64,000 nt of DNA, from NCBI RefSeq assembly GCF_007750395.1, contig NZ_CP036281.1, forward strand, positions 781,211-845,210, written 5' to 3'. The DNA is from Polystyrenella longa (lineage in GTDB: Bacteria > Planctomycetota > Planctomycetia > Planctomycetales > Planctomycetaceae). Below, one piece after another: positions 39,964 through 62,442 of the stretch (the first letter of the stretch is position 1; each line of letters starts with the position of its first letter). The notes beneath the pieces are model-generated. The model did not search any database. It saw nothing but the letters and a program-made list of their open reading frames with translations, and was not told the origin of the DNA. Position numbers and translations under genes: made by a program.

Positions 39964-42756
39964 CTATCTTAGCGATTCCAGGTAACTCAACAGGTCGCGA
40001 AACTCCTGCGTGGTGATCTGATCGATCAGTTTTTCGGGCATGATCGACTTATTTTGCGGCGTGGTCGACTCGATTTCCGTGAGTGGAATCAGGTTGATTC
40101 GACCACTCGTTTCACCTAGTTTCAGCTTTCCATCGGCGGTTTCGCCCAGATGAATTCCGTTGTAGGTTTTGCCGTCTTCCGTGATGACCGAGTAGGTGGT
40201 GAACTGGGGGGCGATTTCGGCGTGGGGTTCGAGAATCGATTCCGCCAGTTTTCCCCGAACGGAAGTGCGGGCGATGTTGGACAGGTCGGGGCCAATTTCG
40301 GAGCCGCGACCTTGGATCATGTGACAATTAAAACAGCCTGACCCCATCTGGTGGAAAAAGACGCGTCGACCGGCTTCCGCATTGCCTTCAAGTGCGGCTC
40401 CCTTTTTCCACTCGGCTAACTGCGACGGTCGAGCCAGAAGAGCATTCTGCATGAACTTAGGAAACTCAGGTCCTACGTAAACCAGACCGAATTGTTCGGC
40501 CAGTTCGTTTTGTTGTTCAGCGTCGAGATCTTTATTCAAGCTTTCAAACTGGGCGAAGTATTTGGCGTAGAATTCCGGATTCAGGTTTGGGACGCCTCGC
40601 AGCATTCGGAGTGCTTCCCTCTGTGATTGGGAATCTTTACTCAACGCAAACTCTTGAGCAACCTTTTGTATTTCTGGAGATTGTGAGGCGATACGTCCGA
40701 GTACAAACAAAATTTCTGGTTTAATTTCAGGCGGTGTTTCCGGGGCCTGCAATTGCTTCAGAAGTTCGGCCTCAAAAGGAGAACCAGGGGCAAGGTGAGG
40801 GGATTGCTGGAGTGTATAGAGTGCTTCCTGTTTCAGGAGCGGGTCCGTCGATTGCAGCAAACTGGTCAGCAGTTTTTCTGTCAAACCGAAGTGATAGGGG
40901 GGCAACATACGCAACGCTTGAGCCCGCATGGCGGCAGGCCGTTCGGCGTCATTCAGCATTTGGAGAATATACTGAGTTCCGGGGACTTCAGCGGAGGCTG
41001 TCCGTTCTTCGCCATCAAGTCGCTCGAGGGAAGCGAGGATGTATTGAAATACGAGTGAGGTTAAATGGGGATTTGTGAGGAGCTTTTCCAGGTCGGGGCG
41101 GAGACTCTGCAGTTCCTCTTCACCCACCCAGCGAACTGCCGTTTGCTGTACGAGCGGGTCCAGGTCATAGAGTGCGATTTTCAGCCCGTCGGTGTTCGCC
41201 GGATTCTTCAGACGCAGGGCGACGAGGTAACCTGCACGCGCAGTTGGTGCGGGTGTTTGCGACTGGTTAAGTCGTTTGACCAGGTCTTCCTCTGTGAGGT
41301 GGCGTGCCGCATTGTGAATAACTTCGTTGAAGAGGTGTTTGTCGTTCAATTGGCCGAGCCGGGTGAAGAGGGCTTCGCCCGCACTACTTTCAAACAGGGA
41401 AAGATCGCGATGGGTGTATAACAAACGGCGACTTTGGGTATTGTTCTGCGCTGAAGGAGTGTTGCTCAAGCGTTTGAGGGCATCGAAGAGGGCGGGTTGT
41501 TCGAGTCGAGTGATTTCGGCGGGTGTTGCGACTTCCATGTTCGATTCAACCGGTTGTTTGGCAGAGAGACGCCATAAGCGACCTTGCCCGTGAACCTTGT
41601 ATTCTTTCAGAACCCAATCGGTGAAATAGAGCGAACCATCCGGAGCAAGGGCGAGACCCACCGGTCGGAAGTTCTCGCCTCCTTCAACGATTGGTTCAGC
41701 GTGCGAGGTGAACGAGGAACCTTTGGGGACCAGTTGGAAACGTTCAATGCGATGATCGCCCCAAGCCCCCACGAGAAGTGAGCCGTGGTATTCAGCGGGA
41801 AATGTTCCCTTGTCGTAAGCAACGATGCCGGATGGGGCTTCTCCGGTGCCAGCCAACATGGGCAGCGTACCGGGGAGTTCTCCGTTCCAGGAAGTATAAG
41901 GATGGGTTCCCCGTCGACCATTTCGGAAGCGGTAACCAAAGTCACTGTCAGGCGTGACGTGCAGTAACCGACAAGGAGGGCGGCTGTCGGGGTCGTTGTC
42001 GACCGTAAAGATTTCACCGGCGGCGTTAACGCAGGACGCGTGGGGGTTCCAGAACCCGGTGCTCCAGTGAGTCAGCTTCGAACCATCCAATTGAAACTGA
42101 AACAGAGACCCTCCTTCACCTCCTCCGCTGTGCGAAGAGTCGTCGGAACCGGTCAGCTTGTATTCCGCCCCCAGGTTTTCGCCGAGGCCAATGTAGAGAT
42201 TGTTGCCAGAATCCATCGCGAACCCGGCAAGTCCATTGTGCGGGTAGTCTCCGTCCGTTTCGAGTTTCAGGAGAGACTGTTGGTCGTCGACCTTCAGATC
42301 CTGATTCTCATCTTTCAGGAGCAGGACTTCTTTTCGTGTCGCCAGGTACACCTGTCCCGGTTTCGGGATGATGATGCTCATCGCATGGGTAAAGCCATCT
42401 GCAAAGACGACGGGGTCACTGGTAGATTTACCGTTAGAATCGACCGTGAATACGAGAATGCGGTCAGTCGGATGCCCGCTATACTCTTCCGGTGGGAAGT
42501 GAGTATTGCTTTCGATGACCCAGATACGACCGTCGGAGTCGACTGTCAGACCAGTGGGAGTGACGAGTTGCGGATGCTCGGCAACCAGCGTCAGTTGCAG
42601 GCGATCGTCCAGCGAATGGGGTTCAACGAATTTTTCTGATTCTGGTGTGACGGTTTCCTGAGCACTGATCAATAAGCTGGAGAAAAGACCCAAACCGCTC
42701 ATCAAAGAGGCGGACAGGAGAGATTTTGCAAACAGGGTAATTAGGGAGGAACGCAT
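39964..42756 (-). CDS. Secreted PVC-type membrane-bound dehydrogenase with a CxxCH heme domain
   Basis: 930 residues. A signal peptide (residues 1 to about 33) leads to a sorbosone/glucose-dehydrogenase-type beta-propeller (residues about 60-410; GLTVDSDGRIWVIESNTHFP, YIGLGENLGAEYKLTG), helical HEAT-like repeats (410-770), and a C-terminal cytochrome c-like PVC heme domain with CFNCH (about 806-810) and ARTSVRGKLAESILEPHAEI. Such proteins are found outside the cytoplasm in planctomycetes and are thought to oxidise sugars or other polyols with electron transfer to heme; the substrate is unproven. AGGA seven bases before the ATG supports the start. The FKBP gene lies 87 nt upstream on the same strand. 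Confidence 0.88.
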   Translation of the reverse strand: MRSSLITLFAKSLLSASLMSGLGLFSSLLISAQETVTPESEKFVEPHSLDDRLQLTLVAEHPQLVTPTGLTVDSDGRIWVIESNTHFPPEEYSGHPTDRILVFTVDSNGKSTSDPVVFADGFTHAMSIIIPKPGQVYLATRKEVLLLKDENQDLKVDDQQSLLKLETDGDYPHNGLAGFAMDSGNNLYIGLGENLGAEYKLTGSDDSSHSGGGEGGSLFQFQLDGSKLTHWSTGFWNPHASCVNAAGEIFTVDNDPDSRPPCRLLHVTPDSDFGYRFRNGRRGTHPYTSWNGELPGTLPMLAGTGEAPSGIVAYDKGTFPAEYHGSLLVGAWGDHRIERFQLVPKGSSFTSHAEPIVEGGENFRPVGLALAPDGSLYFTDWVLKEYKVHGQGRLWRLSAKQPVESNMEVATPAEITRLEQPALFDALKRLSNTPSAQNNTQSRRLLYTHRDLSLFESSAGEALFTRLGQLNDKHLFNEVIHNAARHLTEEDLVKRLNQSQTPAPTARAGYLVALRLKNPANTDGLKIALYDLDPLVQQTAVRWVGEEELQSLRPDLEKLLTNPHLTSLVFQYILASLERLDGEERTASAEVPGTQYILQMLNDAERPAAMRAQALRMLPPYHFGLTEKLLTSLLQSTDPLLKQEALYTLQQSPHLAPGSPFEAELLKQLQAPETPPEIKPEILFVLGRIASQSPEIQKVAQEFALSKDSQSQREALRMLRGVPNLNPEFYAKYFAQFESLNKDLDAEQQNELAEQFGLVYVGPEFPKFMQNALLARPSQLAEWKKGAALEGNAEAGRRVFFHQMGSGCFNCHMIQGRGSEIGPDLSNIARTSVRGKLAESILEPHAEIAPQFTTYSVITEDGKTYNGIHLGETADGKLKLGETSGRINLIPLTEIESTTPQNKSIMPEKLIDQITTQEFRDLLSYLESLR

Positions 42757-46322: not shown

Positions 46323-47381
46323 TCAGATTCCGAAGTCGTATTCATCAATGTTTTCGGCGGTGAATCGAATTGGTTCGGACATGATGATCGTTGTAGCGTC
46401 ATCCGGATGAAGTTGGATCGGGCCGTACTTGGGGAGCTCTGTTCCTGATTCAATTTCCTTACCGGAAACCAGAGCATGAGCCACACGCACAGTCAGTTCG
46501 CCCAGTTGCTGGGGGTTCCACAAGTAGAAAGATTTAAGGACACCTTCTTTGATGTAGGGCTTCATTGATTTAGGGGTGGAATTGCCTACGAGGGCGATCT
46601 CGCCCACTTTGTTGGCTCGCTTGATCGCTTCGGCGGCACCGGGAACAGAGTTACTGTCAAAGGCAACGATTCCTTTAAGATCGGGATTCGCGTTGATCAG
46701 ACTTTGAACCATTTGCCGGGCCGTTTCTGCATCTTCCTGAGTGACGACGGTATCGACTAACTCCAGATCCGGGTATTTTTCTTTGGCGTGTTCTTCAGCA
46801 TATTTACGCCAGGTGTTTAAGTTGGAGGCGTCGAGACTGGCGATGGCGATCGCCCATTTTCCAGATCCACCCATCTGTTCGGCGATATCATCAATCAGCA
46901 TGCGACCGAGCACGGCGTCGTTCACCTGATTGACCATAAAGGCCCGTCCGCTATCGGGCGCGTCACTATCCCAAGTGATGACTTTGATTCCACGGCCTTG
47001 AGCCTGTTCAACGAAGCGTTTAATCGACTTCGGTTGATTCGGGGCAATGCAAATGGCATCGACCCCTTGGCGAATCCAGGTTTCGATGAATTTATTCTGT
47101 TCAATCCCGCTGGGTTGCTGCGGGCCGTCATAGACCAGTTTTACACCGAGATCTGCCGCCGCTTTTTGTGCTCCCTTTTCGCAGGCATCGAAGTAGTCGA
47201 TGTTGACCAGCTTGGGGAGAACGGCGATGACAATTTCGTCATCGGAACTGGCTGAAGCGTTTTCTTCGCCAGCCGGTTTTTCTCCGCATCCGGAAAGTAA
47301 GAAGCCTGCCAGGCCACAGAGAGCCAGGCAAAATAGAAATGACCGTCGAGAAATGCGTTTGCTGACAGGGAAGCGGATCAC
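46323..47381 (-). CDS. Sugar/AI-2-type ABC transporter substrate-binding lipoprotein
   Basis: About 353 residues. The chosen start is one of two adjacent GTG codons (47384/47381), with AAAGGA four or seven bases upstream; the upstream frame to 47459 has no signal. A signal with RR then a lipobox (LLSG-C32) follows. The body is a type I periplasmic binding fold of the RbsB/LsrB/RhaS group: AVLPKLVNIDYFDACEKGAQ, GIKVITWDSDAPDSGRAF and SFYLWNPQQLGELTVRVAHA, ending FTAENIDEYDF as in LsrB. It is the last gene of an ATPase-permease-permease-binding-protein set with the lsrACDB order. Whether the ligand is AI-2, rhamnose or another sugar is open. Confidence 0.85.
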   Translation of the reverse strand: MIRFPVSKRISRRSFLFCLALCGLAGFLLSGCGEKPAGEENASASSDDEIVIAVLPKLVNIDYFDACEKGAQKAAADLGVKLVYDGPQQPSGIEQNKFIETWIRQGVDAICIAPNQPKSIKRFVEQAQGRGIKVITWDSDAPDSGRAFMVNQVNDAVLGRMLIDDIAEQMGGSGKWAIAIASLDASNLNTWRKYAEEHAKEKYPDLELVDTVVTQEDAETARQMVQSLINANPDLKGIVAFDSNSVPGAAEAIKRANKVGEIALVGNSTPKSMKPYIKEGVLKSFYLWNPQQLGELTVRVAHALVSGKEIESGTELPKYGPIQLHPDDATTIIMSEPIRFTAENIDEYDFGI

Positions 47382-47534
47382 CACATCATCCTTTCGCGCG
47401 TTGTGAAGAGGGGCTCCGTTGAATGGAATCAGCATACAGTCTGCCGAACTGGTCACCAAACCGCAAGAACATCACGTCTACCAAACAGGATGTCGACCTG
47501 AATCGGCCTTTCGTTTTCTTTGATTCCGATTGAG

Positions 47535-48476
47535 TCAGGTTGGTTCGTTTCGCTTGTTAAGCCAGACCCCGCCAATCAATAACAGACCGAGCAAAACGTA
47601 GCGGAGATGGTCGATGTTTTCGAAGGTGGTGCCTGCTCCTCGAAGACCTTCTTCCAGTACCGCGATCATTAATACGCCAATTAGTGAACAGATGATCGAC
47701 CCACGGCCTCCTTCAACCCGAGTGCCTCCCAGTACGACGGCGACGATCACTTTCAGTTCCAAGCCCTGGAAAGAAGAGGCGGAGACGGAACCGTTCCAGC
47801 TGGTCAAGCAAAGTGCGGCAATAAAAGCGAAAAATCCCATCAAGGTGTAAACCTGCACGAGTCGCCAGCCGACGGGGATTCCGGCGTAGCGCGCGGCGAT
47901 CGGATTTCCACCGATCATGAGCAAATCGCGTCGCCAGCGAGAGCGATAATAGGCATACGCGCCGCCCAGACAGATCATTACGACCAGCGCGAGCAATGTC
48001 TGCATATTCCGAAATATCTCGTAATGAGGAATCTCGCCGAAGATCGCGTTTTCGGATTGTTTCACGGTGATGGTACAGAGACCGCGATAGAAAATGAGCG
48101 TGCCCAACGTGGTAATGATGGGCGGAACATCCATCCGAGAGATAAGGAAGCCGTTAAACAAACCCAGTCCCAGTGCCAGCACGAGCCCTATCAAAAAGCC
48201 GGTGTACCAAAAAGCTTCCGGCGATTCAGTTAACGACATAACGCAGGCGATGAGGGCGACCATGGAGCCGATGGAAAGGTCGATCCCTCCCGTCATCAGA
48301 ATAAAGGTCATCCCGACGGAGAGAATTAACAAGGGAACAGATTGTTCGAAGATCGCTGAACAGAACCATCCGAAGGAGAAACTGAATTCACTCCATGAGC
48401 TGAACGTCACCCCGTTGAGTGGGGCAAAGAGGATCAATTCCAGGAGGAGAATAATGAGTAAAATCCAGTAACGCAT
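47535..48476 (-). CDS. ABC sugar transporter permease (RbsC/LsrD-like)
   Basis: 313 residues with 8-10 membrane helices of the ribose/xylose/AI-2 permease family (GGIDLSIGSMVALIACVMSL; GLFNGFLISRMDVPPIITTL; VVLGGTRVEGGRGSIICSLI). The GG(x)DLS(x)G and GG(x)xxxGG motifs are family hallmarks. Second of two permeases, 34 nt after the first. Confidence 0.9.
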   Translation of the reverse strand: MRYWILLIILLLELILFAPLNGVTFSSWSEFSFSFGWFCSAIFEQSVPLLILSVGMTFILMTGGIDLSIGSMVALIACVMSLTESPEAFWYTGFLIGLVLALGLGLFNGFLISRMDVPPIITTLGTLIFYRGLCTITVKQSENAIFGEIPHYEIFRNMQTLLALVVMICLGGAYAYYRSRWRRDLLMIGGNPIAARYAGIPVGWRLVQVYTLMGFFAFIAALCLTSWNGSVSASSFQGLELKVIVAVVLGGTRVEGGRGSIICSLIGVLMIAVLEEGLRGAGTTFENIDHLRYVLLGLLLIGGVWLNKRNEPT

Positions 48477-48510: not shown

Positions 48511-49557
48511 TTATTTTAATTCTTCGAGTAGTTTCTCAGTTCGGTGCAGCCAGCAGTCGATGCCAATCACACTAACGATGACGGCACCCTCAATCGCCTC
48601 TCGCCAGTAGACATCAACGCCAAGGTAGATCATGGATCGGGAGACCAGATACAGGAAACAGGCACCCAGGGCCGAGCCAAGGTAGGTTCCCTGCCCACCG
48701 AAGATATTGGTTCCTCCCAGTACGACCGCCCCAATGACGGTCAGTTCGAAACCGATGGCAATCTGTCCTGGTTTGATTTCCTGGGGATTGGTGACCAGGG
48801 TGAGGGCGGCCAGTCCGAGGAATAGACCACTCACAAGGAAGGCAAGACTCCGGAGTCTTGCCGGGTTAAGACCCTGGCGTTCGCATGCGACGGGAGAACA
48901 ACCAATTGCCAGCCAGAGTCGGGGTAACTTGCCGAATGCTTCCCAGAGAAGAACTCCGATCATAACAACAAGGAGAATCTCTCCCGCGTAAAATTTGCCC
49001 GGACCCTGATACGCTTCGTCCTGAATGCTGAAGACTTCGGGAAAGTCAGGAACCGTGAGGTGCGCGATGATCAACGCGAGCCCTCTGTATAATGTTAACC
49101 CGCCCAATGTCAGAATGATGGGAGAGACTTCTAGAAGGCGAATGAGCCAGCCGTTCAATACGGAGAAAGCAACAGCGGTGGAAAAACATCCCGCATAGCA
49201 AACGGCGGGGGAGAATTCGTAGTAATGGAGAATGCCAAACGTACTTCCTGCGACGGCGATAATGGAACCGATGGAAAGATCAATGGCGCCGCAGAAAATC
49301 AAACCAGTGAGGGCGAAGGCTCCCAGAACTTGCGGTGCGATGTTGGGTCCAAGGTCGACGAGTTCATTCCAGAAGGAGCTTTCCCGCTGCTGAGCGGCGA
49401 AAAAGAGATAGCCAAGCAGCACCAAATTCCCAAACAGTAAAAACAGAATTCGCTGTCGTACCGCAGGAGGCGACTGACGATAAATCAGTTGAGCCGTAGA
49501 ACGGGCAGGTTTGTATTTAGGAGACGCCGGATCCGTTTTCGCGGATGAGTTTGTCAT
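48511..49557 (-). CDS. ABC sugar transporter permease (RbsC/LsrC-like)
   Basis: 348 residues, multi-helix, same family as its neighbour (AIDLSIGSIIAVAGSTFGIL; SVLNGWLIRLLEVSPIILTL; VVLGGTNIFGGQGTYLGSAL). Its ATG overlaps the ATPase stop (ATGA), so translation is coupled. It would pair with the 47535-48476 permease in a heterodimer. Confidence 0.9.
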   Translation of the reverse strand: MTNSSAKTDPASPKYKPARSTAQLIYRQSPPAVRQRILFLLFGNLVLLGYLFFAAQQRESSFWNELVDLGPNIAPQVLGAFALTGLIFCGAIDLSIGSIIAVAGSTFGILHYYEFSPAVCYAGCFSTAVAFSVLNGWLIRLLEVSPIILTLGGLTLYRGLALIIAHLTVPDFPEVFSIQDEAYQGPGKFYAGEILLVVMIGVLLWEAFGKLPRLWLAIGCSPVACERQGLNPARLRSLAFLVSGLFLGLAALTLVTNPQEIKPGQIAIGFELTVIGAVVLGGTNIFGGQGTYLGSALGACFLYLVSRSMIYLGVDVYWREAIEGAVIVSVIGIDCWLHRTEKLLEELK

Positions 49558-51101
49558 GTCGTCTTCCCATCGTGAATGAGGCCGGACGCGGCAAGGACGA
49601 CATTTTGTTCGGTTTTATCGTCACCGGTAAGCTCTGTTTCGATTCGACCTCGGTTCATGACGAGGACACGGTCCGACATCGCCAACACTTCGGGGAGGTC
49701 AGACGAGATGAGTAAAATCGCTTTCCCTTTGTCGGCGAGTTCTTCGATCAGAGAGTGGATTTGGGCTTTGGCGCCGATATCGATTCCGCGCGTCGGTTCG
49801 TCAAGAATGATGACTTCTGGATTTCGCTCGAACCAGCGTCCCAGGATCGCTTTTTGCTGATTACCACCGCTCAGTTGGCCAATCGATTGTTCTCGACCGG
49901 CACTGCGGACGTCGTAAGTTTTGAGGACGGAGTCGACTTTCTCTCGTTCTTTCTTGAGAGAGATGAAACCAAAGCGACTCACTAATCGCGAAAAACCAAT
50001 GCTGATGGAATCGTTCAGAGAATGATCGAGAACGAGTGCCTGCCGTTTGCGTTCTTCGGGAATATAGACGAGTCCGGATTCAACTGCCTGCTGCGCGCTA
50101 GAAGGTTTCCAGAGACGGGTCCGATAATGCATCTGGCCTGATTCAATGGGGTAGAGTCCATAGATTGCACGGGCGAGTTCAGAACGCCCGGCACCAACGA
50201 GCCCTGCCAGGCCGAGGATTTCTCCCGCGTGGAGCGAGAAGGAAATGTCGTAAAACATATTATTCCGGGTGACGTTTTCCAGTTCCAGCAGCGGGAGCCC
50301 CAGCAACCGTTGTTTACGATGTGGAAAAACCTGTTCCAGGTCTCTTCCGACCATCTCTGCCACCATTCGCTCTGCCGTGATGTCGACGGTGGGACAGTGG
50401 TTGATGAGTGTGCCTTCTCTCAGGATCGCCACGTGGTTGGTTAACTCGAAGATTTCATCGAGCCGATGCGAAACATAGATCATACTGACCCCTTCTTTTC
50501 GCAACCTTTTCAGGTGCCCGAATAAACGTTTAATTTCAGGCTCGGTAAGCGCCGCACTGGGTTCGTCCAGGATGAGCAACTTAGCTTTACGGGCCAACGC
50601 GTTAGCGATAGCGACTTCCTGTTTCTGAACAGCGGATAACGATTCGAATTGAGCGTCGGTCGCGATTTCAATACCGAACGATTGAAGTCGCTCCTGTGCA
50701 ATGTTGTGAACCGCTTGCCAATCTGTACTCCACCAGGGAGTGCGGGGCCACGGTTCGCCTAGCAGCATATTTTCGGCGACGGTCAAATGGGCTGCGTATT
50801 CCAATTCCTGATGAATCGTTGCGATCCCGGTTTCCAATGCCTCGCGTGGAGACGGGAATTCGACCGGCTTTCCCTGAAATCGAATCGTTCCCGAGTCGGG
50901 CGAGTGGAGTCCGCTTAATAGTTTGATCAGCGTCGATTTGCCTGCACCATTCTCACCAACGAGCCCCAGTATTTCTCCTTCGCCCAGGGAGAGATCCAAG
51001 GGCTTCAGAGCCACATATGCCCCAAACGATTTCGTTAATCCCTGTAGATCCAAAAGAGTCGGAACGGAATTGGTTTTTGTTTGGGAGTCGGTCCGGATCA
51101 T
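49554..51101 (-). CDS. ABC sugar transporter ATP-binding protein (RbsA/LsrA-like)
   Basis: 515 residues, two ABC domains in tandem as in RbsA. Domain 1 has a Walker A GENGAGKST (about 51-59) and a Walker B LLILDEPSAAL; domain 2 has a degenerate Walker A (GLVGAGRSELA), a signature LSGGNQQKAILGRW and VIILDEPTRGIDIGAKA. It energises the import of a sugar-like ligand. It is the first gene of the ATPase-permease-permease-binding-protein operon, the same order as lsrACDB. The glycosidase-like gene lies 70 nt upstream on the same strand. Confidence 0.93.
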   Translation of the reverse strand: MIRTDSQTKTNSVPTLLDLQGLTKSFGAYVALKPLDLSLGEGEILGLVGENGAGKSTLIKLLSGLHSPDSGTIRFQGKPVEFPSPREALETGIATIHQELEYAAHLTVAENMLLGEPWPRTPWWSTDWQAVHNIAQERLQSFGIEIATDAQFESLSAVQKQEVAIANALARKAKLLILDEPSAALTEPEIKRLFGHLKRLRKEGVSMIYVSHRLDEIFELTNHVAILREGTLINHCPTVDITAERMVAEMVGRDLEQVFPHRKQRLLGLPLLELENVTRNNMFYDISFSLHAGEILGLAGLVGAGRSELARAIYGLYPIESGQMHYRTRLWKPSSAQQAVESGLVYIPEERKRQALVLDHSLNDSISIGFSRLVSRFGFISLKKEREKVDSVLKTYDVRSAGREQSIGQLSGGNQQKAILGRWFERNPEVIILDEPTRGIDIGAKAQIHSLIEELADKGKAILLISSDLPEVLAMSDRVLVMNRGRIETELTGDDKTEQNVVLAASGLIHDGKTT

Positions 51102-51171: not shown

Positions 51172-52686
51172 TCAATTATTGCGAAACGCAAAGCTGTAAA
51201 GGTCACAATTATTCATCTGAAATCGAATGTAAACAGGTTGTCCTGCGTACTTGGAGATGTCGAAATCTGGAAAATCAACAGGAGCTCGTAAGTGATCGCC
51301 CGAGACTGGAATTGATTCGGCGAGAAGGAGACCGGAGGAATCGTGTAAATGAACGACCACCGACCCTTTGGGTTTCGTTTGAATGTTGAGTTCCAATCGA
51401 TCACCCGAGAAAACAACCGGGACTGTTTTCAACGATCCGGTTAATTCCCCCGATTTCGCTGATACAAACCGGTCTCGCTTCCATGTGACTAACCCAATGC
51501 TGCCCGTGTATTCTGAAAGGCGGCCTGTTCCTTCTGCTCGATAAAGGCATGGGTTTCCATGCGTGAAATTGCAGGCACTGTAATACAGGCGAACTTCATC
51601 ATTCACCAGAATGGCTTCCGCGGGTGTCGTAAAGAACCCGCTGTCCCACTGGCCTGGTTTTCCGCGGGGAACAACTGGCGTTCGAAAAGGGCGTTCCCAA
51701 GTGACGAGGTCGCGAGTGACTGCGAGTTGGATCTCCGAGGGGCCTTCGTGGTTTCCGTATCGGGCATCATTATTAATAGTGAAGACCCAGGGGAAACCGA
51801 CCGTACAGCTTTCTGCCTGATAAACACCTGCTCCATAGAATTCGGTTCGCATTAAATCAGGTGCATCGGGAACGTCCAGTAGGGATCGAACTTCCTCAAT
51901 TCGGGCGAGCGAACTGGCGTCGTCGCGTAAATCGGGTTTAAAGATATAATAGGGTTCAGACCAGGTTAGAAAATCCTGGCTGATCGATAGACCAAAGCAG
52001 CGGCGGATATGATCGCGATGCTTCGTGACCAGTTTGGGAATTGCGACATACTGTTGCCGTTGTCGGTCGAAATATCCAGTGAGAACATCGCTGGAACGAA
52101 CGACATAAGTTTTGCTTAATCTCGTCCAATGGATGCCATCGGGAGAGACCATCGTCTGCGGTCCCCCTTCTGGTTTGGGAGCATCAATGTGACAAAGCAT
52201 TTTATAGCGGCGTGAGGGATCAGCCTCTTTGTTATCTTTAATGACAGAGGCTAAATGGCACTCTGCTACAATGTTCGTCGGTTCGCCAGCTTCTGTGAGG
52301 TATTCCTTCAGTAGCGGTTTAGTCCAATGGAGACCGTCCTCACTGGTGGCATAGCAAGTGACATAGGTTTCGCTTTGATCAATTCCATTCGAGGCGAGAT
52401 ACCACATTTTGAAGAGCTGTTCTTCTTCATCGAAGAGAACTGTTCCGTACAATTCAAGTCGCCAGCCTTCCCAGGAACGGTCGACGGTGATCAGAGGGTT
52501 TTGGGAATGTCGTTTTCCGGCATGCATCTTGAAATGCACGTTTTCAGAGTCATGAACCAGGACCTGGTCGACGAATAATTGAGCTTTGTCAGCCACGTCG
52601 AACGGGGAATCGCCGGCCAGCGCCGAAAATGAGCAGATGACGAGCGATAATGTCAGGAACACGAACGTCCATTTTGAGTTGGGCAT
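51172..52686 (-). CDS. Secreted five-bladed-propeller glycoside-hydrolase-like protein
   Basis: About 504 residues from the ATG at 52686. A signal peptide (FVFLTLSLVICSFSALA-GD) precedes a GH32/43/68-like beta-propeller: FKMWYLASNG, YATSEDGLHWTKP, MVSPDGIHWTRL, SISQDFLTWSEP and GQWDSGFFTTPAEAIL. The final 120 residues form a beta-sandwich-like region (LELNIQTKPKGSVVVHLHDS). It is probably a sugar-polymer hydrolase, but I cannot place the catalytic acids. A GTG at 52704 with TAGG four bases upstream is another possible start. It lies just upstream of the sugar ABC operon, so its products may be the imported ligand (inference). Confidence 0.75.
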   Translation of the reverse strand: MPNSKWTFVFLTLSLVICSFSALAGDSPFDVADKAQLFVDQVLVHDSENVHFKMHAGKRHSQNPLITVDRSWEGWRLELYGTVLFDEEEQLFKMWYLASNGIDQSETYVTCYATSEDGLHWTKPLLKEYLTEAGEPTNIVAECHLASVIKDNKEADPSRRYKMLCHIDAPKPEGGPQTMVSPDGIHWTRLSKTYVVRSSDVLTGYFDRQRQQYVAIPKLVTKHRDHIRRCFGLSISQDFLTWSEPYYIFKPDLRDDASSLARIEEVRSLLDVPDAPDLMRTEFYGAGVYQAESCTVGFPWVFTINNDARYGNHEGPSEIQLAVTRDLVTWERPFRTPVVPRGKPGQWDSGFFTTPAEAILVNDEVRLYYSACNFTHGNPCLYRAEGTGRLSEYTGSIGLVTWKRDRFVSAKSGELTGSLKTVPVVFSGDRLELNIQTKPKGSVVVHLHDSSGLLLAESIPVSGDHLRAPVDFPDFDISKYAGQPVYIRFQMNNCDLYSFAFRNN

Positions 52687-52787
52687 ACGGGAAATGATTT
52701 GCACTATGCCTACTTTCAAATTTTAAAAGACGAATCGTTGCAATTCAGATAGTTGTTGGTCAGGAAGAATAGAGGCGACGTCTGGAA

Positions 52788-55700
52788 CTACTTCAAGGGG
52801 ACGATGCCGATGTATTCGCCGTTCCCCGGATGAGTCGCCGTGATCTTGATCGTCAGCGGTTTACCGGGGGTGACCATGTTCGCGGGTACTTGCAGTTCAA
52901 TGACACCGCTTGACTTTGATCCGGAAGATTCGAGAGCCATGTAACGTGCGAGTAATCCATTCTCCTCGTTCATCCATTGAGCATCTTCAATTGTCGAGGC
53001 GATTTCAACCTGTTGATTGTCATTGATGGAAAGAGTGAAGGGATGTGTTGGTTGGTCACCAATTTTCATTGCGATGGGAAGCAGAACGGATTGAGGTTTG
53101 GCGGGGTCGGCATCTTCCGGAATGACTGTAGTCTCACAGATAACGTGAGTCGCAGCGGTGCCGGCTACGCTGACGGCGACTTTGGTGTCACCGTACCAAC
53201 CGAGATGATTGACCAGCACGGGGCTGGCAGCTTCGTTGCCCACCTGGACGGTTGCGGCTTCTCGAACAAGCTGTCGTGCATTGTTTGCAATTCGCTCGTC
53301 GGTAGCCCCAGTCGTGCCTGGTTTGCTTCTAAGGAACGCAATGATATCAGCCATGTCCTGATGCGAAACATCCTTCTCAAGCCCTTCTGGCATGAACGAC
53401 TTGCGGGTATTCACTAATTCATCAATGTCGGTTCGCAATAAGATCCTTTTGCGACCATTGTTTTCTGCCAAGGTAATGCTGCTGGATGATTCAGAAACGA
53501 TCATGCCGTTGTAAGCGCGGCCATCATTCATCACGGCAATGTAGTTGCGGTACTGACCTTCGACCGCTTTGTTTGGGTCGAATACAGCCAGAGCGATATT
53601 TCCGGCAGACTTATCGGACAACGCGGTAATATTGGGGCCGATATTAGTTCCCACGGCTCGGACCTGGTGGCAGGCCGAACAGGTTCGCCGGAAGACCAGA
53701 GAACCTCGTATCGGATTGCCGTCCATTTGAGCAACAGATTTGTAGTCTTCGACAATCTGGACACGATCACTCGAACCGGTGGATTGCAGAAGTTTGTTGG
53801 CTCGTCCACGTATTACATCGTCAGAGAGCGATATCAGGTTGGAACGGGTCGCCGGATCGAGGTCGACTGCGGCCACAGTTCCTTCTTCCAATGCATCCAG
53901 GAATATCTTAGTCCAGGCAGCTCTGCTGAGCAGAACACTAGTGACGGATCCTTGCAGGCTGGGAGAGTAGGCTCTCCAGTTCTCCAGCAACATCGTGGGG
54001 ACGGCATCGCTTTTCTTACTTGCCAGGTTCGTAATCGCGGCTTCCTGGAGCAATGAGGGAATGTTTGGAGTTAGAAGTTCTGAGAGAGCTTCGAGGTTAT
54101 CGTCGAGGTCATCAAGTCCTCGTCCCAGCAGACGAACGGCCAGCTGTCGCGAGGCGAGGTCAGCATCTTCATCGGTGGCGAGTTCGAGTGCGGATTCGAA
54201 AATGTCGTCCGTTTGTTCCCATAGTTCTTCCTGTTCGCCCGTCACTTTGTGAAGCGTGCTGAGATCAGAGCCTGCTCGTTCGAGCGCATCGAGAAAGGAA
54301 CCCATGGCTGAGTATTGCCAGGGAGCGATTACTGCATCTTCCGCTTGTTCATTTGGTAAGACGATGTTCGCGAGAACCTTTGTGGCAACTTCTTTCGATT
54401 CGACTCCCAAGGCAGTAACAACGAGATGCTGAACGAGTTCCGCCCAGGCGCCGGAAGTATCGGGATGCGCGAGGACATAGTCGAGCATCAACTCGGCATG
54501 GGGTAAAGCGGAGGAGAGAACGGCGGCTCGCATCCAATGGTCCTCGGCAGTGCTTACGCCCAGCTTGGCGAGGGCATCTGCTGCGAGCGGGTCGTTCCAT
54601 TCTCCAAGAGAAAGGGCGATTTGTAGTTTGAGTTTGATTTCCGGATGTTCAATCAGACTGGTGACCTTCTCCCCCAGTGTTGGGTGATCGTTCATCAGGG
54701 GTTCACTTAGTTCCACAGCGGCGGAGAGAACGTGCCAGTCGGTGTCGTTAAAAGCACTGAGTAAAATCTCTTCGTTAAGTGCGTTGATACCAGCGAGTGT
54801 ATGTAAAGCCTGTACTCGGCTGACGGGCAGGGGAGCATGCAGTGCGATCTGTTTGAGTGTTCGCAGCAGGTCCATATGTTTGGAAGAATCTTCACGGTTG
54901 ACGAGCAATTGCTGGGAGAGATCGCGTACCGGTCCGTTGGTACTTTTGAGATGCTCTGCAAGTTCAACAGAATCGAGCATTTCCAGATTAGGAAGAGGCC
55001 CCTGCGGCCGGTTCCCTTTTTTATAAACACGGTAGATGCGACCTTTGTCTTCGCCTGCGCGGACGTTCAACATCTTCTGCCAATCGTCCGGAATCCATTG
55101 GGGGTGTTCGATCACTTGACGATACATGTCGGCAAACCAGATTGCCCCATCGGGGCCCGTGGTGATGCGGACAGGGCGTGACCAGACGTCGGTGGACGCA
55201 AGGAATTCACGGTCCTGTTCACCCGGTGCACGAACACCGTGAAAAGTGACACCGTTGTCATTGAGCACCGTGCGAAATACCAGGTTGTGAACGGGTTCAC
55301 AAATGAGAGCACTATGTGCGAATTCGGGGCCGAGGGTGACATCGCGGAAGATCCCCTCACCACAAGCGGAGGTCACACGGTTCGCCGCGTAGAGGTCGTT
55401 AAACCGGTCGACCGTACGGCTGGCGGGATAAATGGGGGGAGCTACAGGCGGGTCGATCAGTTCTTCTCGTGGTGGAGGAGCAGGAAAAAATCGATTCCGA
55501 CGAAGGTATCGGTCTGAAATGACATAGTGATAGATCGGTCTACTGTTATCACTACCAAACCAGTGTCCCCAGTCATCACGAACGCGTCCGTACTGGGTCC
55601 GTCCACTTTCGGTTTCGATTTCGCTGGTATCTGGTTTGATGCGTATGTCGAGGTTCGACATGTTGATTTTCTGGCCAGTGAGAACGGCGGTGATCTCTTC

Positions 55701-57557
55701 ATTGGGGGCGCCGCTGCCGACATGAATCCAGTTATCGAGTCCCCAGGCAAAACCGTTGACACGGTGTTGCGGGTTCGACTCGACAAAGCCGGTGAAGAGA
55801 ACTTGTTTGTGATCTGCTTTTCCATCGCCGTCGGTATCTTCAGCGTAGAAAATGTCCGGGGCACAACTGACGATGGCCCCTTTCCGCCAGGGCATGACGC
55901 CGGTGGGGTAGGAAAGACCATCCAGGAAGATTTGGGCGTCGTCCATTTTTCCGTCACCATTGGTGTCGGTGAGGATGCGGACCTGTCCGCCCGGAGTTCC
56001 GTCGTTATTTAATCCATTTGGGTAGTCGCTCATCTGGACAACCCACAGTCGGCCATCGGGGCCGAAATTGAAGTTCACCGGGTCGGCGATGAGCGGTTCC
56101 GAAGCGACAAGTTCGATCTCGTAGCCTTCGGGTAGCTTCCAGGTTTTTAAGGCTTCTTTGGGAGACTTGGCTCCTTCGGCCGGGTTGGATTTGATTTCCT
56201 TGACCCGTTTCAGGACGAGGTCTTCGGTGCCGCTGGCCCAAGGGCCGGGGTGGTTGTAGAAGACCTGAGAAAAGTCGACTTCGTACCCTCCCTGTTGAAT
56301 CATCGATTCGGAGGGGACATAGCCAAAGACATCGTTGGCGTAAGCCGTAACCCAGGTGCGCTGGCTATCAGTCAACTCGTGTCGAATACGATGGGCGTAG
56401 GGAGAAACGACTTCGCCACCCAGAAAGACCATAGTCAGCTCATCACCGAAGGCCCAGGTCTGGATTGGCATTGGGTAGGTTTCGGGAAGACGACGTTTTC
56501 GCTCGTAGACTTCCACCATGTTCTCGGCATGCCGACGAACCTGAGGATTAGGGTCATTCAGGAGGTCGCGGAATTCCTGCACATCGCGACGATTGTATTC
56601 GAGTCCGGCGTAGCCAAATGAAGCTTCGGGAGCGGCTTGAATGGGTTCCAGCTTTGTACCCAGGATACGTTTCACTTCATCCGCGATGACACGCCCATTA
56701 CTGACGGCTTGTTCGAATTCACCACGAGGTTCCGGGTTGGCGTCGGCGCCGCAACCAATGGTGCAGAGGGCGACTGCATCGGTGTATTCTTCTTCGAGAA
56801 ACTTCTGAGCATAACCGGCCCAGTCGCCATTCACGAAATTATGTTTGGGAACGAGCGTGGTGCAATGACAGGCATAGTTGAAGACGATCCCGAGCAATTT
56901 GCCGTCGGCGGAGGTGACTCGAATGACAGGGAGAGTTTCGTCGATAATGCCTTCCGGATTGGGGCCCATACCGACACAGATGCCCCCTTTGATAATTCGT
57001 CGATTCATCGCGAGGCGAGAGGCTCCCTCGCCCCAACTGAGTTGAGCCGGCGCGAGTGATTTGATGGCTTCTCCGACGGAGTCGACCAGTTGGTCTTCGA
57101 TGTACTGAGTGTATCGATCCATCGCGGCGACTTCCGCTTCGGACTGGGGAGCCGCAAACAGGTTTGGGATTCCTGCGGAGGTATGAGGCGCGGTGTGCGA
57201 GTGGGTGTTTGCCAAGGCAAAGCGTTCACGACTGATACCGAAGTCTTTTTCGAGTCGTTCGGCAATCTGTTTGGTAATGACGCCGGAAAGACCAATCCCT
57301 TCCACCGAACTGAGGATGTGAATAGGTTGGTTGCCCTGACGGATGGCCAATGTACGCACGTAGATTGGTTCTTCCACACGCTCAAAGGGTTCAGTGCGGT
57401 TACCATATCCAGAAAGGCGCACAGGTTCGGTGGGGGTGATATCGCGTTTGGCAAAGCTGGCCTGGAAATCTGCAGCAAACAGGGCAGAGGAGCAAACCGA
57501 AAGGAGTCCGGTTAATACCAGCACGCACAAAAGATGACTTCTACCGAATGGAAGCAT
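52788..57557 (-). CDS. Giant secreted fusion: neutral ceramidase-like, PVC dehydrogenase, HEAT repeats and CxxCH heme
   Basis: 1589 residues from the ATG at 57557 (GAGGA five bases upstream; a TTG at 57569 is less likely). A signal peptide ends near LFA-AD. Residues about 30-440 resemble the neutral/alkaline ceramidase N-domain, including the zinc motif NTHSHTAPHTS (about 117-127) and FNYACHCTTLVPKHNF. From about 470 comes a PVC membrane-bound dehydrogenase propeller (LPEGYEIELVASEPLIADPV; FAWGLDNWIHVGSGAP), then HEAT-like repeats, a CSACH heme domain (about 1295-1300) and a C-terminal region of about 170 residues that looks beta-rich. So a hydrolase, an oxidoreductase and a cytochrome are on one chain. 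Export to the periplasm is likely; substrates are unproven. Confidence 0.85.
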   Translation of the reverse strand: MLPFGRSHLLCVLVLTGLLSVCSSALFAADFQASFAKRDITPTEPVRLSGYGNRTEPFERVEEPIYVRTLAIRQGNQPIHILSSVEGIGLSGVITKQIAERLEKDFGISRERFALANTHSHTAPHTSAGIPNLFAAPQSEAEVAAMDRYTQYIEDQLVDSVGEAIKSLAPAQLSWGEGASRLAMNRRIIKGGICVGMGPNPEGIIDETLPVIRVTSADGKLLGIVFNYACHCTTLVPKHNFVNGDWAGYAQKFLEEEYTDAVALCTIGCGADANPEPRGEFEQAVSNGRVIADEVKRILGTKLEPIQAAPEASFGYAGLEYNRRDVQEFRDLLNDPNPQVRRHAENMVEVYERKRRLPETYPMPIQTWAFGDELTMVFLGGEVVSPYAHRIRHELTDSQRTWVTAYANDVFGYVPSESMIQQGGYEVDFSQVFYNHPGPWASGTEDLVLKRVKEIKSNPAEGAKSPKEALKTWKLPEGYEIELVASEPLIADPVNFNFGPDGRLWVVQMSDYPNGLNNDGTPGGQVRILTDTNGDGKMDDAQIFLDGLSYPTGVMPWRKGAIVSCAPDIFYAEDTDGDGKADHKQVLFTGFVESNPQHRVNGFAWGLDNWIHVGSGAPNEEITAVLTGQKINMSNLDIRIKPDTSEIETESGRTQYGRVRDDWGHWFGSDNSRPIYHYVISDRYLRRNRFFPAPPPREELIDPPVAPPIYPASRTVDRFNDLYAANRVTSACGEGIFRDVTLGPEFAHSALICEPVHNLVFRTVLNDNGVTFHGVRAPGEQDREFLASTDVWSRPVRITTGPDGAIWFADMYRQVIEHPQWIPDDWQKMLNVRAGEDKGRIYRVYKKGNRPQGPLPNLEMLDSVELAEHLKSTNGPVRDLSQQLLVNREDSSKHMDLLRTLKQIALHAPLPVSRVQALHTLAGINALNEEILLSAFNDTDWHVLSAAVELSEPLMNDHPTLGEKVTSLIEHPEIKLKLQIALSLGEWNDPLAADALAKLGVSTAEDHWMRAAVLSSALPHAELMLDYVLAHPDTSGAWAELVQHLVVTALGVESKEVATKVLANIVLPNEQAEDAVIAPWQYSAMGSFLDALERAGSDLSTLHKVTGEQEELWEQTDDIFESALELATDEDADLASRQLAVRLLGRGLDDLDDNLEALSELLTPNIPSLLQEAAITNLASKKSDAVPTMLLENWRAYSPSLQGSVTSVLLSRAAWTKIFLDALEEGTVAAVDLDPATRSNLISLSDDVIRGRANKLLQSTGSSDRVQIVEDYKSVAQMDGNPIRGSLVFRRTCSACHQVRAVGTNIGPNITALSDKSAGNIALAVFDPNKAVEGQYRNYIAVMNDGRAYNGMIVSESSSSITLAENNGRKRILLRTDIDELVNTRKSFMPEGLEKDVSHQDMADIIAFLRSKPGTTGATDERIANNARQLVREAATVQVGNEAASPVLVNHLGWYGDTKVAVSVAGTAATHVICETTVIPEDADPAKPQSVLLPIAMKIGDQPTHPFTLSINDNQQVEIASTIEDAQWMNEENGLLARYMALESSGSKSSGVIELQVPANMVTPGKPLTIKITATHPGNGEYIGIVPLK

Positions 57558-58116
57558 TCTTATCCTCAATATTTATGTGGGGGATACTTTATGTATGGGC
57601 ACCTTCACGAGGGAAACCGAGAAGGGAAGGATCAGAGGGGAGTCCAGACTGCACAAGGAAAGGTCGCGCAGTGAGGCCACTAATGTACTTATAACAAATC
57701 AGACTCTATTAGACTTGATCGTGCGAGGGAAATGCAACTGAGCCGTTATTCGGGAGGGGTTAAAGCTTGCCAGGTTTCACTGACCGGCAGAGGTGGCAGC
57801 CTTACCGTAAACGGGGTTTTTCCCTTGTCCGAGTACCGATTATAGACGGACCTTCAATACCGGCAATCAGCGATGTCGGGATCAAAGTGTGCTGGACAGC
57901 GGCGAAAGTATCCGATTTTCGATAAGGAATGCCTTCCTTTTGGGATGTTGTCGGCTGGGCCAGGAGACTTAGACAGGGCTGACAATCACGTAGATTAGAC
58001 AGGCGTGCAGGAGTTCAACAGAAGACCCGATGCGATCGGGATCAGTTAACCCCATGATTTCTCGGCGATAGTCTAAGTCGGAGAGAAGTCAGAATCTGAT
58101 ACGTTGAAAGTTGGCA
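57558..58116. other. Divergent spacer upstream of the ceramidase fusion and the P/Q-rich lipoprotein
   Basis: Both promoters lie here. AAGGAATGCCTTCCTT (about 57926-57941) is a short palindrome. I see no gene; a 77-codon minus frame overlaps the lipoprotein start and lacks support. Confidence 0.45.
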
Positions 58117-60507: not shown

Positions 60508-62442
60508 ATGAATAATATGAACAAATTACACTCACCTGCCAGCAAATGGTTGCTGGGACTGACCCTGGTTTCTTTTATGAGCATTTCGGTAATGGCAGCA
60601 GAGCCAATCACGTTATCAGACGAGGTTTCCTCACAGGCTCTCGAAGTCCTTGAGTCTGGTCTCGGGGCCGAAGACTTCTGGCCTTCCATGCATGCTGCCG
60701 AAGCGTTGACGGGGGCAGGGCATCCGGAAGATGTGGTGACTGTCCTGACTCCGATGTTGGATAAAATCGACGATGATCAACAACGGTGCGGAGTGGCTCG
60801 CGAGTTAGTCCGCGCGGGCGAACGTCATCATCGCCATGTCCTCTTTTCAATACTGGGCAGTGACGACCCTTACGGTCACATTCATGCCTGCGAATCGATG
60901 TACAAAATCGGCGAAGTCCATTATGGAAACATGCTGCGAAAGGCACTCGCGAATGAAGAAAAACCAATTCAACAGATGATGGCGTCGGCGGCTCTAGCGA
61001 AAGCAGGACATCCACAAGCGATGGATCTGGTCCGTGCGAAGCTGAATGATCCAGACGTGAATATCTCTCGTATCTCTGCCTGGATACTGGCCCGTTTGGG
61101 AAATGAACAGGATATCGAACCTGTTCGTCAGGCAATGGCGAAGGCGACCAAACCGGAAGATCGTTGTTATTTCGAGCATGCCCTTGCGATGTTAGGTGAT
61201 CCTGCCGGGAAGGAAGCGACGTTAAAGAACCTGGAGCATACTGACTCGTTTGTTCGTCGCTACGCTGCAGTCTTTGCTGGAGAAGCGGGCCTAGTCGAAG
61301 CCCAACCTCAGCTCGAAAAAATGCTGAAGGACGAAGACGTGGATGCCCGAATTCGTGCCGCTCAGGCATTGTTCGTACTTTCGAAACCGCATCAGGATAT
61401 CCAGGAGATTATTGTCCGCGATGTCTTCGCAGCAGATGAAAAGCATCCTCGTTACAGCGAAGGATCTATTATTCAGCTCGATAACGGAAACCTGTTGTTT
61501 GCAAATACAGAATTCGCCGAGTCGACATCCGATTTTGCCGAAGCTCAAATCGTGGCAATGGAATCTGCGGATGAAGGCCGAACATGGACTGACAGACGTG
61601 TTCTTCAGGAAAACATTGGTGGGAAAAATGTGATGTCCGCAACATTGCGGCGGCTGACGCATGTGCAAAAAGAACCGGCTGCGATCGGGCTCTTTTATCT
61701 GGTCAAGAATGATTATAATGACCTGAAAGTGCACCTGCGGACTTCGACAGACGAAGGCAAAACTTTCGGGGAACCGACTGTGGTTACCGACGAACAGAAG
61801 TATCACGTCCTCAATAATGACCGCGTTACCTTACTGTCCACTGGCCGTCTGATCGTTCCTGTTGCAGTGAGTGCTGATGTTAAACAGGAAAACCACTTTG
61901 TCTGTTACTGTTATTACTCCGACGATGCCGGAAAAACCTGGGTAAAAGGAGAAGGGACCGTCGATGCTCCTCAGCGAGGGGCAATGGAACCGGAGGTCGT
62001 TGAACTCCGTGGAGGCCGTCTGGCGATGTTAATGCGGAACCAACTCGGTTTCATCGGTATCAGCTATTCAGAAGATAATGGAGTGACCTGGAGCGAGCAC
62101 GAGAGCTGGAACGTCACTGCTCCTGAAGCACCCGCGACGATCCGCCGTATTCCGGCTACAGGTGATCTGGTGTTGATCTGGAATAACAACTTCGAAGAAG
62201 GGGCCGGTCACAACGGCAAACGGACTCCTTTAACAGCGGCGATTTCCAACGATGAAGGGAAGACCTGGAAGCACGTTAAGAATCTCGAAACCTCTACCGA
62301 GCATACTTATTCCTACCCGAGCCTGATCTTCACGCAAGGACGAGCTGTGATGAGCTACTATGTGCACGACGAATCGACCAAGCTGTATTCCACCCGATTC
62401 CGTTCGGTACCGGTAAGCTGGTTTTATGAAGACGAGAAATAA
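60508..62442 (+). CDS. Secreted HEAT-repeat plus sialidase (Asp-box) protein
   Basis: 644 residues. A signal peptide ends near SVMA-AE. Residues about 40-300 are HEAT-like helical repeats (AAEALTGAGHPEDVVTVLTP; AKAGHPQAMDLVRAKLNDPD). From about 310 there is a six-bladed sialidase-type propeller with at least five Asp boxes (SADEGRTW, STDEGKTF, SDDAGKTW, SEDNGVTW, SNDEGKTW). Sialidases remove terminal sialic acid from glycans, but Asp boxes also occur in other glycosidases and I cannot place the catalytic residues. AGGA six bases before the ATG supports the start. The HEAT half may hold a partner or the substrate. Confidence 0.85.
   Translation: MNNMNKLHSPASKWLLGLTLVSFMSISVMAAEPITLSDEVSSQALEVLESGLGAEDFWPSMHAAEALTGAGHPEDVVTVLTPMLDKIDDDQQRCGVARELVRAGERHHRHVLFSILGSDDPYGHIHACESMYKIGEVHYGNMLRKALANEEKPIQQMMASAALAKAGHPQAMDLVRAKLNDPDVNISRISAWILARLGNEQDIEPVRQAMAKATKPEDRCYFEHALAMLGDPAGKEATLKNLEHTDSFVRRYAAVFAGEAGLVEAQPQLEKMLKDEDVDARIRAAQALFVLSKPHQDIQEIIVRDVFAADEKHPRYSEGSIIQLDNGNLLFANTEFAESTSDFAEAQIVAMESADEGRTWTDRRVLQENIGGKNVMSATLRRLTHVQKEPAAIGLFYLVKNDYNDLKVHLRTSTDEGKTFGEPTVVTDEQKYHVLNNDRVTLLSTGRLIVPVAVSADVKQENHFVCYCYYSDDAGKTWVKGEGTVDAPQRGAMEPEVVELRGGRLAMLMRNQLGFIGISYSEDNGVTWSEHESWNVTAPEAPATIRRIPATGDLVLIWNNNFEEGAGHNGKRTPLTAAISNDEGKTWKHVKNLETSTEHTYSYPSLIFTQGRAVMSYYVHDESTKLYSTRFRSVPVSWFYEDEK

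Follow-up and report, generated by a model that had tools for sequence, protein, structure and literature searches.

A neutral-ceramidase-fold zinc hydrolase fused to a propeller, HEAT-repeat and cytochrome c chain in Polystyrenella longa: a possible carbohydrate deacylase and oxidase

A single open reading frame of Polystyrenella longa joins a zinc hydrolase domain of the neutral-ceramidase type to a propeller, a HEAT-repeat region, a c-type cytochrome domain and an extra C-terminal domain. This order had been read from the sequence in the initial annotation, and it agrees with the assignments obtained here over curated Pfam and NCBIfam cut-offs. We tentatively interpret the product as an exported oxidoreductase of the PVC propeller-HEAT-cytochrome kind which has captured a ceramidase-fold zinc hydrolase and couples carbohydrate deacylation to oxidation, a reading to which we give somewhat less than an even chance. 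Following this scheme, the zinc domain would remove an acyl group, held as an amide or an ester, from a carbohydrate-type substrate, and the propeller would then oxidize the exposed sugar (or amine). From there the electron would reach the respiratory chain by way of the fused His/Met heme and, within the genus, the released sugar would be taken up by a co-transcribed ABC transporter. Domain order, predicted folds, ligand conservation, distribution and the exchange of modules among sister chains are observations; the carbohydrate nature of the substrate, the action of both steps on one molecule, the redox cofactor, the course of the electrons and the operon are inferences.

The gene lies at positions 52788-57557 on the minus strand of the window, the 64,000-nucleotide stretch of DNA that was analyzed, and from its ATG start it encodes 1,589 residues with no internal stop codon. 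A TTG start at 57569 (ORF 52788-57569) would add four residues, for a total of 1,593. Judged by eye, the N terminus resembles a Sec signal peptide (residues 1-29, 57471..57557), with a hydrophobic stretch followed by an alanine-rich, cleavage-like site near residue 29, and the protein is predicted to be exported. Next on the same strand come the ceramidase-fold domain (residues 30-455, 56193..57470), assigned through PF04734, a profile match to 2zws and 4wgk and a structural model, and a TIGR02604/DUF7133 propeller (residues 465-847, 55017..56165), recognized by Pfam and NCBIfam and modeled with a six-bladed fold resembling PQQ sugar dehydrogenases. A HEAT-repeat region with approximate boundaries (residues about 850-1275, 53733..55010) leads to the TIGR02603 c-type cytochrome domain (residues 1281-1411, 53325..53717), which was recognized by Pfam and NCBIfam and by a phmmer match to 7zs0, and the chain closes with a beta-rich, lineage-specific domain (residues 1420-1589, 52791..53300).

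In the Pfam scan, Ceramidase_alk PF04734 scored 43.6 bits (cut-off 32.1), with a match to residues 35-260 that is shorter than the homologous block, which reaches about residue 455. DUF7133 scored 517 bits (cut-off 27), HEAT_2 33.4 (27.7) and Cytochrom_C 28.1 (21.3), and the NCBIfam models TIGR02604 and TIGR02603 scored 254.5 (122.2) and 103.5 (68.15). With both curated models over their cut-offs, the protein is, by sequence, a full member of the PVC-type heme-binding CxxCH proteins. The same Pfam scan recognized no carbohydrate-binding domain in it and no PF01522 (polysaccharide deacetylase, CE4), a domain that occurs in sister chains. An assembly artefact was ruled out by the full-length copy, 79% identical, that a congener carries and by the many fused homologues described below.

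Residues 29-850 were modeled with AlphaFold from 25 aligned relatives (mean pLDDT 87.5, pTM 0.74). Structure prediction and a domain boundary check had been proposed in the initial annotation, and both the ceramidase fold and the sugar-dehydrogenase fold were matched in this model. Comparison by Foldseek and VIA-align with the neutral ceramidase 2zws gave Z 39.9 over 398 residues (3.2 A, 19% identity), and human neutral ceramidase 4wgk gave Z 37.0, so that the match of the predicted fold is unambiguous. Putative zinc ligands could be placed by profile alignment. His119 (57201..57203, minus strand) and His231 (56865..56867) correspond to His97 and His204 of the Pseudomonas aeruginosa enzyme, and Glu382 (56412..56414) and Tyr413 (56319..56321) pair with Glu411 and Tyr448 of 2zws in a second alignment segment that is weak, yet colinear. 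We take H97, H204, E411 and Y448 to be the zinc ligands of the Pseudomonas ceramidase. All four positions of the fusion are invariant among the aligned ceramidase domains of its relatives (33/33), and in every member of a second fusion subfamily (37/37) H, H, E and Y recur at positions equated by motif. The zinc site first proposed is thus upheld, and neither its ligands nor the heme cysteines, the residues whose variation among orthologues had been named as grounds for doubt, were found to vary.

Although its predicted fold is that of neutral ceramidase, we advise against naming the protein a ceramidase. GDVSPN is given as the ceramidase amidase motif in the accessible parts of PMC6952831 and PMC5874051; residues 270-275 of the fusion read GADANP in its place, and of 125 ceramidase-domain ORFs examined, only 2 have GD[VIT]SPN. 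The PF04734 match covers only positions 5-232 of the 509 in the model, and the ceramidase-like domains of PVC bacteria usually match only positions 1-232. The amide hydrolysis assumed in the initial annotation is at most a candidate activity, the ceramidase-specific motif being absent.

The second half of the model came closest to the PQQ-dependent sugar dehydrogenase 3a9g (Z 25.4, 285 residues), followed by other six-bladed sugar dehydrogenases (2ism, Z 24.2; the AA12 enzyme 6i1q, 24.1; sGDH, about 22-23); SMP-30 lactonases and NHL propellers scored Z 20-21. At the level of fold the model therefore suggests a dehydrogenase as the best match among propellers, though by few Z units over the others. 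When solved structures were searched by sequence with a profile of 35 propellers, no relative was found, and comparison of the profile with Escherichia coli YliI reached a probability of 10%, a value so low that any mapping of residues is tentative. A catalytic His and an Arg that binds PQQ are named in the accessible part of PMC6881789. On this very weak alignment H598 tentatively fits the catalytic-His motif by spacing, with His in 26/35 propellers, and R653, aligned by eye, tentatively corresponds to the PQQ-binding Arg of YliI, with Arg in 11/35. Because these positions are so unevenly kept, yet six polar residues (E754, R794, D810, R813, E817 and H818) are invariant in 35/35, the propeller probably has a working site that is not clearly a PQQ site.

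A cell whose propeller worked as an ordinary PQQ dehydrogenase would be expected to synthesize PQQ or take it up. We found pqqC absent from the P. longa genome and from 149 of the 150 family genomes, all of which match the fusion protein, mostly through the propeller core; pqqE was over its cut-off in 1 of 41, and not in P. longa. The sole pqqC-positive genome, G008, also has pqqE over cut-off, which indicates that the searches are able to detect the pathway. PQQ can also be scavenged. With pqqC missing from 149/150 genomes and the PQQ-site residues poorly kept, the dehydrogenase step that the model suggests is putative. The dehydrogenase of the initial annotation accordingly stands as a fold, and is weakened as an activity by the absence of PQQ synthesis from the genome and by the poor conservation of the site. 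About 10 kb from the fusion, 39964-42756 of the window encodes a second, unfused TIGR02604/TIGR02603 propeller-HEAT-cytochrome protein of 930 aa, which scored 24.3 bits against Glucose/Sorbosone dehydrogenase PF07995, just under the cut-off of 25.

The cytochrome domain has a CSACH heme attachment site at residues 1293-1297 (53667..53681, minus strand) and a putative distal ligand at Met1389 (53391..53393). Both the Cys, Cys and His of the site and this Met are invariant in 104/104 relatives, as would fit a c-type domain with CxxCH and a distal Met. Met1389 aligns to Met292 of 7zs0, a distal ligand of a high-potential heme (PMC11791136, accessible part). The C-terminal domain, of about 170 residues, belongs to no Pfam or NCBIfam family and was found in 4 of the 150 family genomes (P. 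longa, its congener, G020 and G051), always at the end of a fusion, the G051 match being the cut end of one; the model of residues 1270-1589 was poor (pLDDT 52). Both domains had been noticed at the outset, and the first is borne out by TIGR02603 over its cut-off and by its conserved heme residues, the second as a lineage-specific addition.

Near-full-length fusions, with matches running from about residues 1-40 to 1390 or beyond, were present in at least 62 of the 150 family genomes, three candidates per genome being scored among the matches listed. Fusion homologues among named records include those of Roseiconus nitratireducens, Gemmatales, many Verrucomicrobiaceae and Hydrogenedentota. The combination had been described as unusual, which holds against textbook enzymes and fails within Planctomycetota and Verrucomicrobiota, where the design is common and not unique to P. 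longa. Open-access literature was searched, with most subscription papers lying outside, and no description of a ceramidase-propeller-cytochrome fusion was found; the accessible part of a Thermogutta paper (PMC5673643) holds nothing on this propeller-cytochrome family.

For a survey of domain arrangements, 103 core-bearing ORFs were kept. Eight locus ids were left out, seven as duplicates or re-fetched copies and L091 as a truncated copy of the L010 gene, along with all propellers less than 40% identical to that of the fusion. An N-terminal extension longer than 250 aa was present in 86 and lacking in 17. The extension contained a ceramidase-type domain in 74 of the 86, detected by BLAST in 68, by Pfam in L030 and by HMM in five (L042, L046, L063, L074 and L086), a share that is biased upward because the loci were found through the fusion protein. 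Separate versions of the parts, which the initial annotation had suggested looking for, occur in the P. longa genome itself: it has 12 PF04734 matches, most of them in stand-alone ORFs of 459-562 aa, and 19 distinct open frames over the TIGR02604 cut-off, the fusion included, most of about 900-1,200 aa with no N-terminal hydrolase.

A second set of fusions, centered on Verrucomicrobia, is built on another ceramidase subfamily. We compared the two sets in a ceramidase tree that took every second row of the second group (19) and dropped domains shorter than 330 residues. The planctomycete fusion group has the stand-alone L004 and L001 as its sisters (100/97), and the Verrucomicrobia-centered group has the stand-alone L006 (100/99), the exact places of several stand-alone rows being unsure as their branches are long. 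Forcing all fusions into one clade was rejected, with a log-likelihood 213 lower and a p-AU of 4e-54; for this test L091, which stands alone in the tree because its contig is cut, was grouped with the fusions. Since the tree rejects a single clade, the ceramidase-propeller fusion probably arose twice, most simply with the same redox chain acquiring a ceramidase-type enzyme on two occasions, a different one each time; a single capture with repeated splitting afterwards is a less simple history. In the propeller tree some of the rows scored as plain are contig-end fragments of fusions, and its counts of change therefore overstate mixing.

Several further arrangements were observed. In the verrucomicrobial chains L030 (2,115 aa) and L039 (2,170 aa) the redox core is flanked on either side by a ceramidase-type domain, and the C-terminal copy of L030 is over the Pfam cut-off. 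L131:5031-13400 has two tandem ORFs on one strand, each of more than 1,300 aa, and the first of them is the fusion. Near 3,727 kb of the P. longa genome (L001), two adjoining stand-alone ceramidase-type ORFs on the same strand are related to the fusion domain. Stand-alone ceramidase-type genes also lie near unfused core genes, at 2,610-2,622 kb of the P. longa genome (divergent, with one ORF between) and in L036 and L073; with a rough estimate of about 0.2 such cases expected by chance in the P. longa genome, this co-location is only a hint.

The substrate had rightly been left open in the first reading of the sequence, and domain swaps together with genus-level gene order now point to carbohydrates. 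N-terminal extensions with no ceramidase found by BLAST numbered 17, of which 12 have FG-GAP repeats and 7 have polysaccharide deacetylase PF01522; these sisters were found by similarity to the fusion protein, and their share is no unbiased census. Polysaccharide deacetylase is another metal-dependent deacylase. The extensions with the second type of ceramidase contain a laminin-G domain in 37/37 and a 3-keto-disaccharide hydrolase-like domain in 7/37. At the other end of the sister chains, 25 C-terminal tails included CBM6 in 8, F5/8 C in 3, and CBM35 in 3 by PF16990 and in 6 by PF18099, with some overlap among the models. PVC cytochromes joined to carbohydrate-binding modules, with a suspected role in carbohydrate metabolism, appear in freshwater Verrucomicrobia in the accessible part of PMC5615132.

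On the minus strand of the window, the next gene (51172..52719) encodes a 515-aa protein which belongs to no Pfam or NCBIfam family and has a weak resemblance to the carbohydrate-binding protein 6n1a (E 8e-4). Beyond it lie genes for a sugar ABC transporter: an ATPase of the AraG/XylG/RbsA type (49554..51101), two permeases (48511..49557 and 47535..48476) and a periplasmic sugar-binding protein (46323..47459) whose closest models are RhaS and LsrB, all of them assigned below equivalog cut-offs. Between 51101 and 52788 the minus strand has no terminator-like site. At the congeneric locus L119 the 515-aa gene is absent, and the ATPase match follows 88 bp after the fusion match, placing the transporter ATPase directly downstream (82-83% identity). 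Within its genus, then, the fusion apparently heads a sugar-ABC-transporter operon. A 29% relative of the 515-aa protein sits 5 kb from a core gene in L045. Elsewhere in the window, the gene at 60508-62442 joins HEAT repeats to a BNR sialidase-like domain, and it is kept at 73-76% identity in the same place in the congeneric loci L009/L119 and L010.

Outside the genus, none of the other fusions fetched was seen to have the sugar transporter next to it. The neighbors of 21 other orthologue loci (87 ORFs) had no consistent sugar function, the top families being methyltransferases (6), DUF1501 (5) and 3-keto-disaccharide hydrolase (3), and for loci outside the genus we rejected conserved neighborhood as a pointer to function. 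The carbohydrate reading is thus supported by the deacetylase, carbohydrate-binding and laminin-G modules of sister chains and by the transporter linkage within the genus; it is opposed by the restriction of that linkage to the genus, by the lack of a recognized carbohydrate-binding domain in the protein itself, by the missing cofactor pathway for the oxidation step and by the known chemistry of the fold. To our knowledge, ceramidase-fold enzymes of known activity act on ceramide. The case for ceramide as the substrate here is nonetheless weak, because GADANP replaces GDVSPN, sister chains carry deacetylase or carbohydrate modules, and the apparent operon includes a sugar transporter.

These observations bear on how the two halves of the chain might work, together or apart. 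It seems improbable to us that the zinc domain acts as a genuine ceramidase or an amidase of N-acyl lipids, whose product, a sphingoid base or amino alcohol, is then oxidized by the propeller and heme. The sequence profile finds no solved family other than neutral ceramidase, which also leads the fold comparison by far and whose zinc ligands are kept, but the amidase motif is replaced in the fusion and is rare among the ceramidase-domain ORFs, the PVC domains usually match less than half of PF04734, and sister fusions carry carbohydrate modules. A rather unlikely account, though one to be taken seriously, has the hydrolase and the redox part acting on different molecules and fused merely for joint export and surface placement, in the manner of mix-and-match PVC giant proteins. 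The core is indeed joined to several unrelated N- and C-terminal modules or left unfused at about 1,000 aa, it recurs in the 19 P. longa ORFs over the TIGR02604 cut-off, and module order varies, as in L030 and L039 with their two ceramidase-type domains. However, a zinc-dependent deacylase-type fold has come to lie at the N terminus through two ceramidase captures and a deacetylase, which is more than one would expect of random mixing.

The propeller could also be something other than a dehydrogenase, namely a binding scaffold or an enzyme of the lyase/lactonase type, with the heme serving for sensing, for peroxide, or for electron hand-over from elsewhere. Missing PQQ synthesis, the poorly kept positions tentatively matched to the PQQ-site Arg and catalytic His, the failure of the propeller profile to find a solved relative and the closeness of SMP-30 lactonases and NHL propellers (Z 20-21 versus 25) all argue for it. 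We consider it clearly unlikely all the same, since sugar dehydrogenases still rank first among propellers by Z, the family member at 39964-42756 touches PF07995, scavenging could supply PQQ, and the six invariant polar residues together with a fused His/Met heme suggest redox catalysis. Coupled deacylation and oxidation of a carbohydrate is the reading that we tentatively prefer. A bolder extension of it, which we regard as a long shot, is that Planctomycetota possess a PQQ-free class of propellers with the sugar-dehydrogenase fold, passing electrons to a fused c-type heme via an unrecognized cofactor or directly, and that this class has twice recruited ceramidase-fold hydrolases as carbohydrate deacylases. 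If so, each would deacylate and then oxidize its substrate on a single chain, sidestepping ordinary glycoside hydrolysis.

Complex polysaccharides are degraded on a large scale by PVC bacteria, which carry dozens of propeller-cytochrome chains of no known function, and fused hydrolases offer natural clues to the substrates of those chains. Should hydrolase and oxidase act in sequence, they would constitute an oxidative route of glycan use and would permit an easy first assay, in which zinc hydrolase activity is followed by heme reduction. For the propeller family as a whole, the absence of a PQQ pathway turns the cofactor into a concrete question.

Among known systems, the fusion shares its propeller, HEAT and cytochrome c core with the PVC-type heme-binding CxxCH proteins (TIGR02604 plus TIGR02603, DUF7133), to which it adds the N-terminal zinc hydrolase and the C-terminal domain. 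The PSCyt/PSD proteins, like relatives of the fusion, combine a cytochrome chain with laminin-G, CBM6 or F5/8 C domains; they belong to other Pfam cytochrome and PSD families, and the accessible part of their description mentions no ceramidase domain (PMC5615132). With the PQQ aldose sugar dehydrogenases and AA12 pyranose dehydrogenase (3a9g, 2ism, 6i1q and sGDH), the fusion shares a predicted six-bladed propeller fold, and the logic of a dehydrogenase plus a heme is common to it and to quinohemoproteins such as CcPDH (PMC6881789, accessible part). In contrast to these enzymes, its c-type heme lies at the far end, behind HEAT repeats, the positions tentatively matched to PQQ-binding residues are poorly conserved and the host has no PQQ synthesis. 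The diheme cytochrome Kustd1711 of an anammox planctomycete (7zs0) has CxxCH and a distal Met at the alignment position of the fusion's; unlike the fusion, it is described in the accessible part of PMC11791136 as a stand-alone protein with no enzyme domains, and its potential is tuned by calcium. Finally, neutral ceramidase (PF04734; 2zws, 4wgk) shares the predicted fold of the catalytic domain and the four zinc-ligand positions, whereas the fusion lacks GDVSPN, has a shorter middle part, and continues from its hydrolase into a redox chain where ceramidase has a C-terminal domain of its own.
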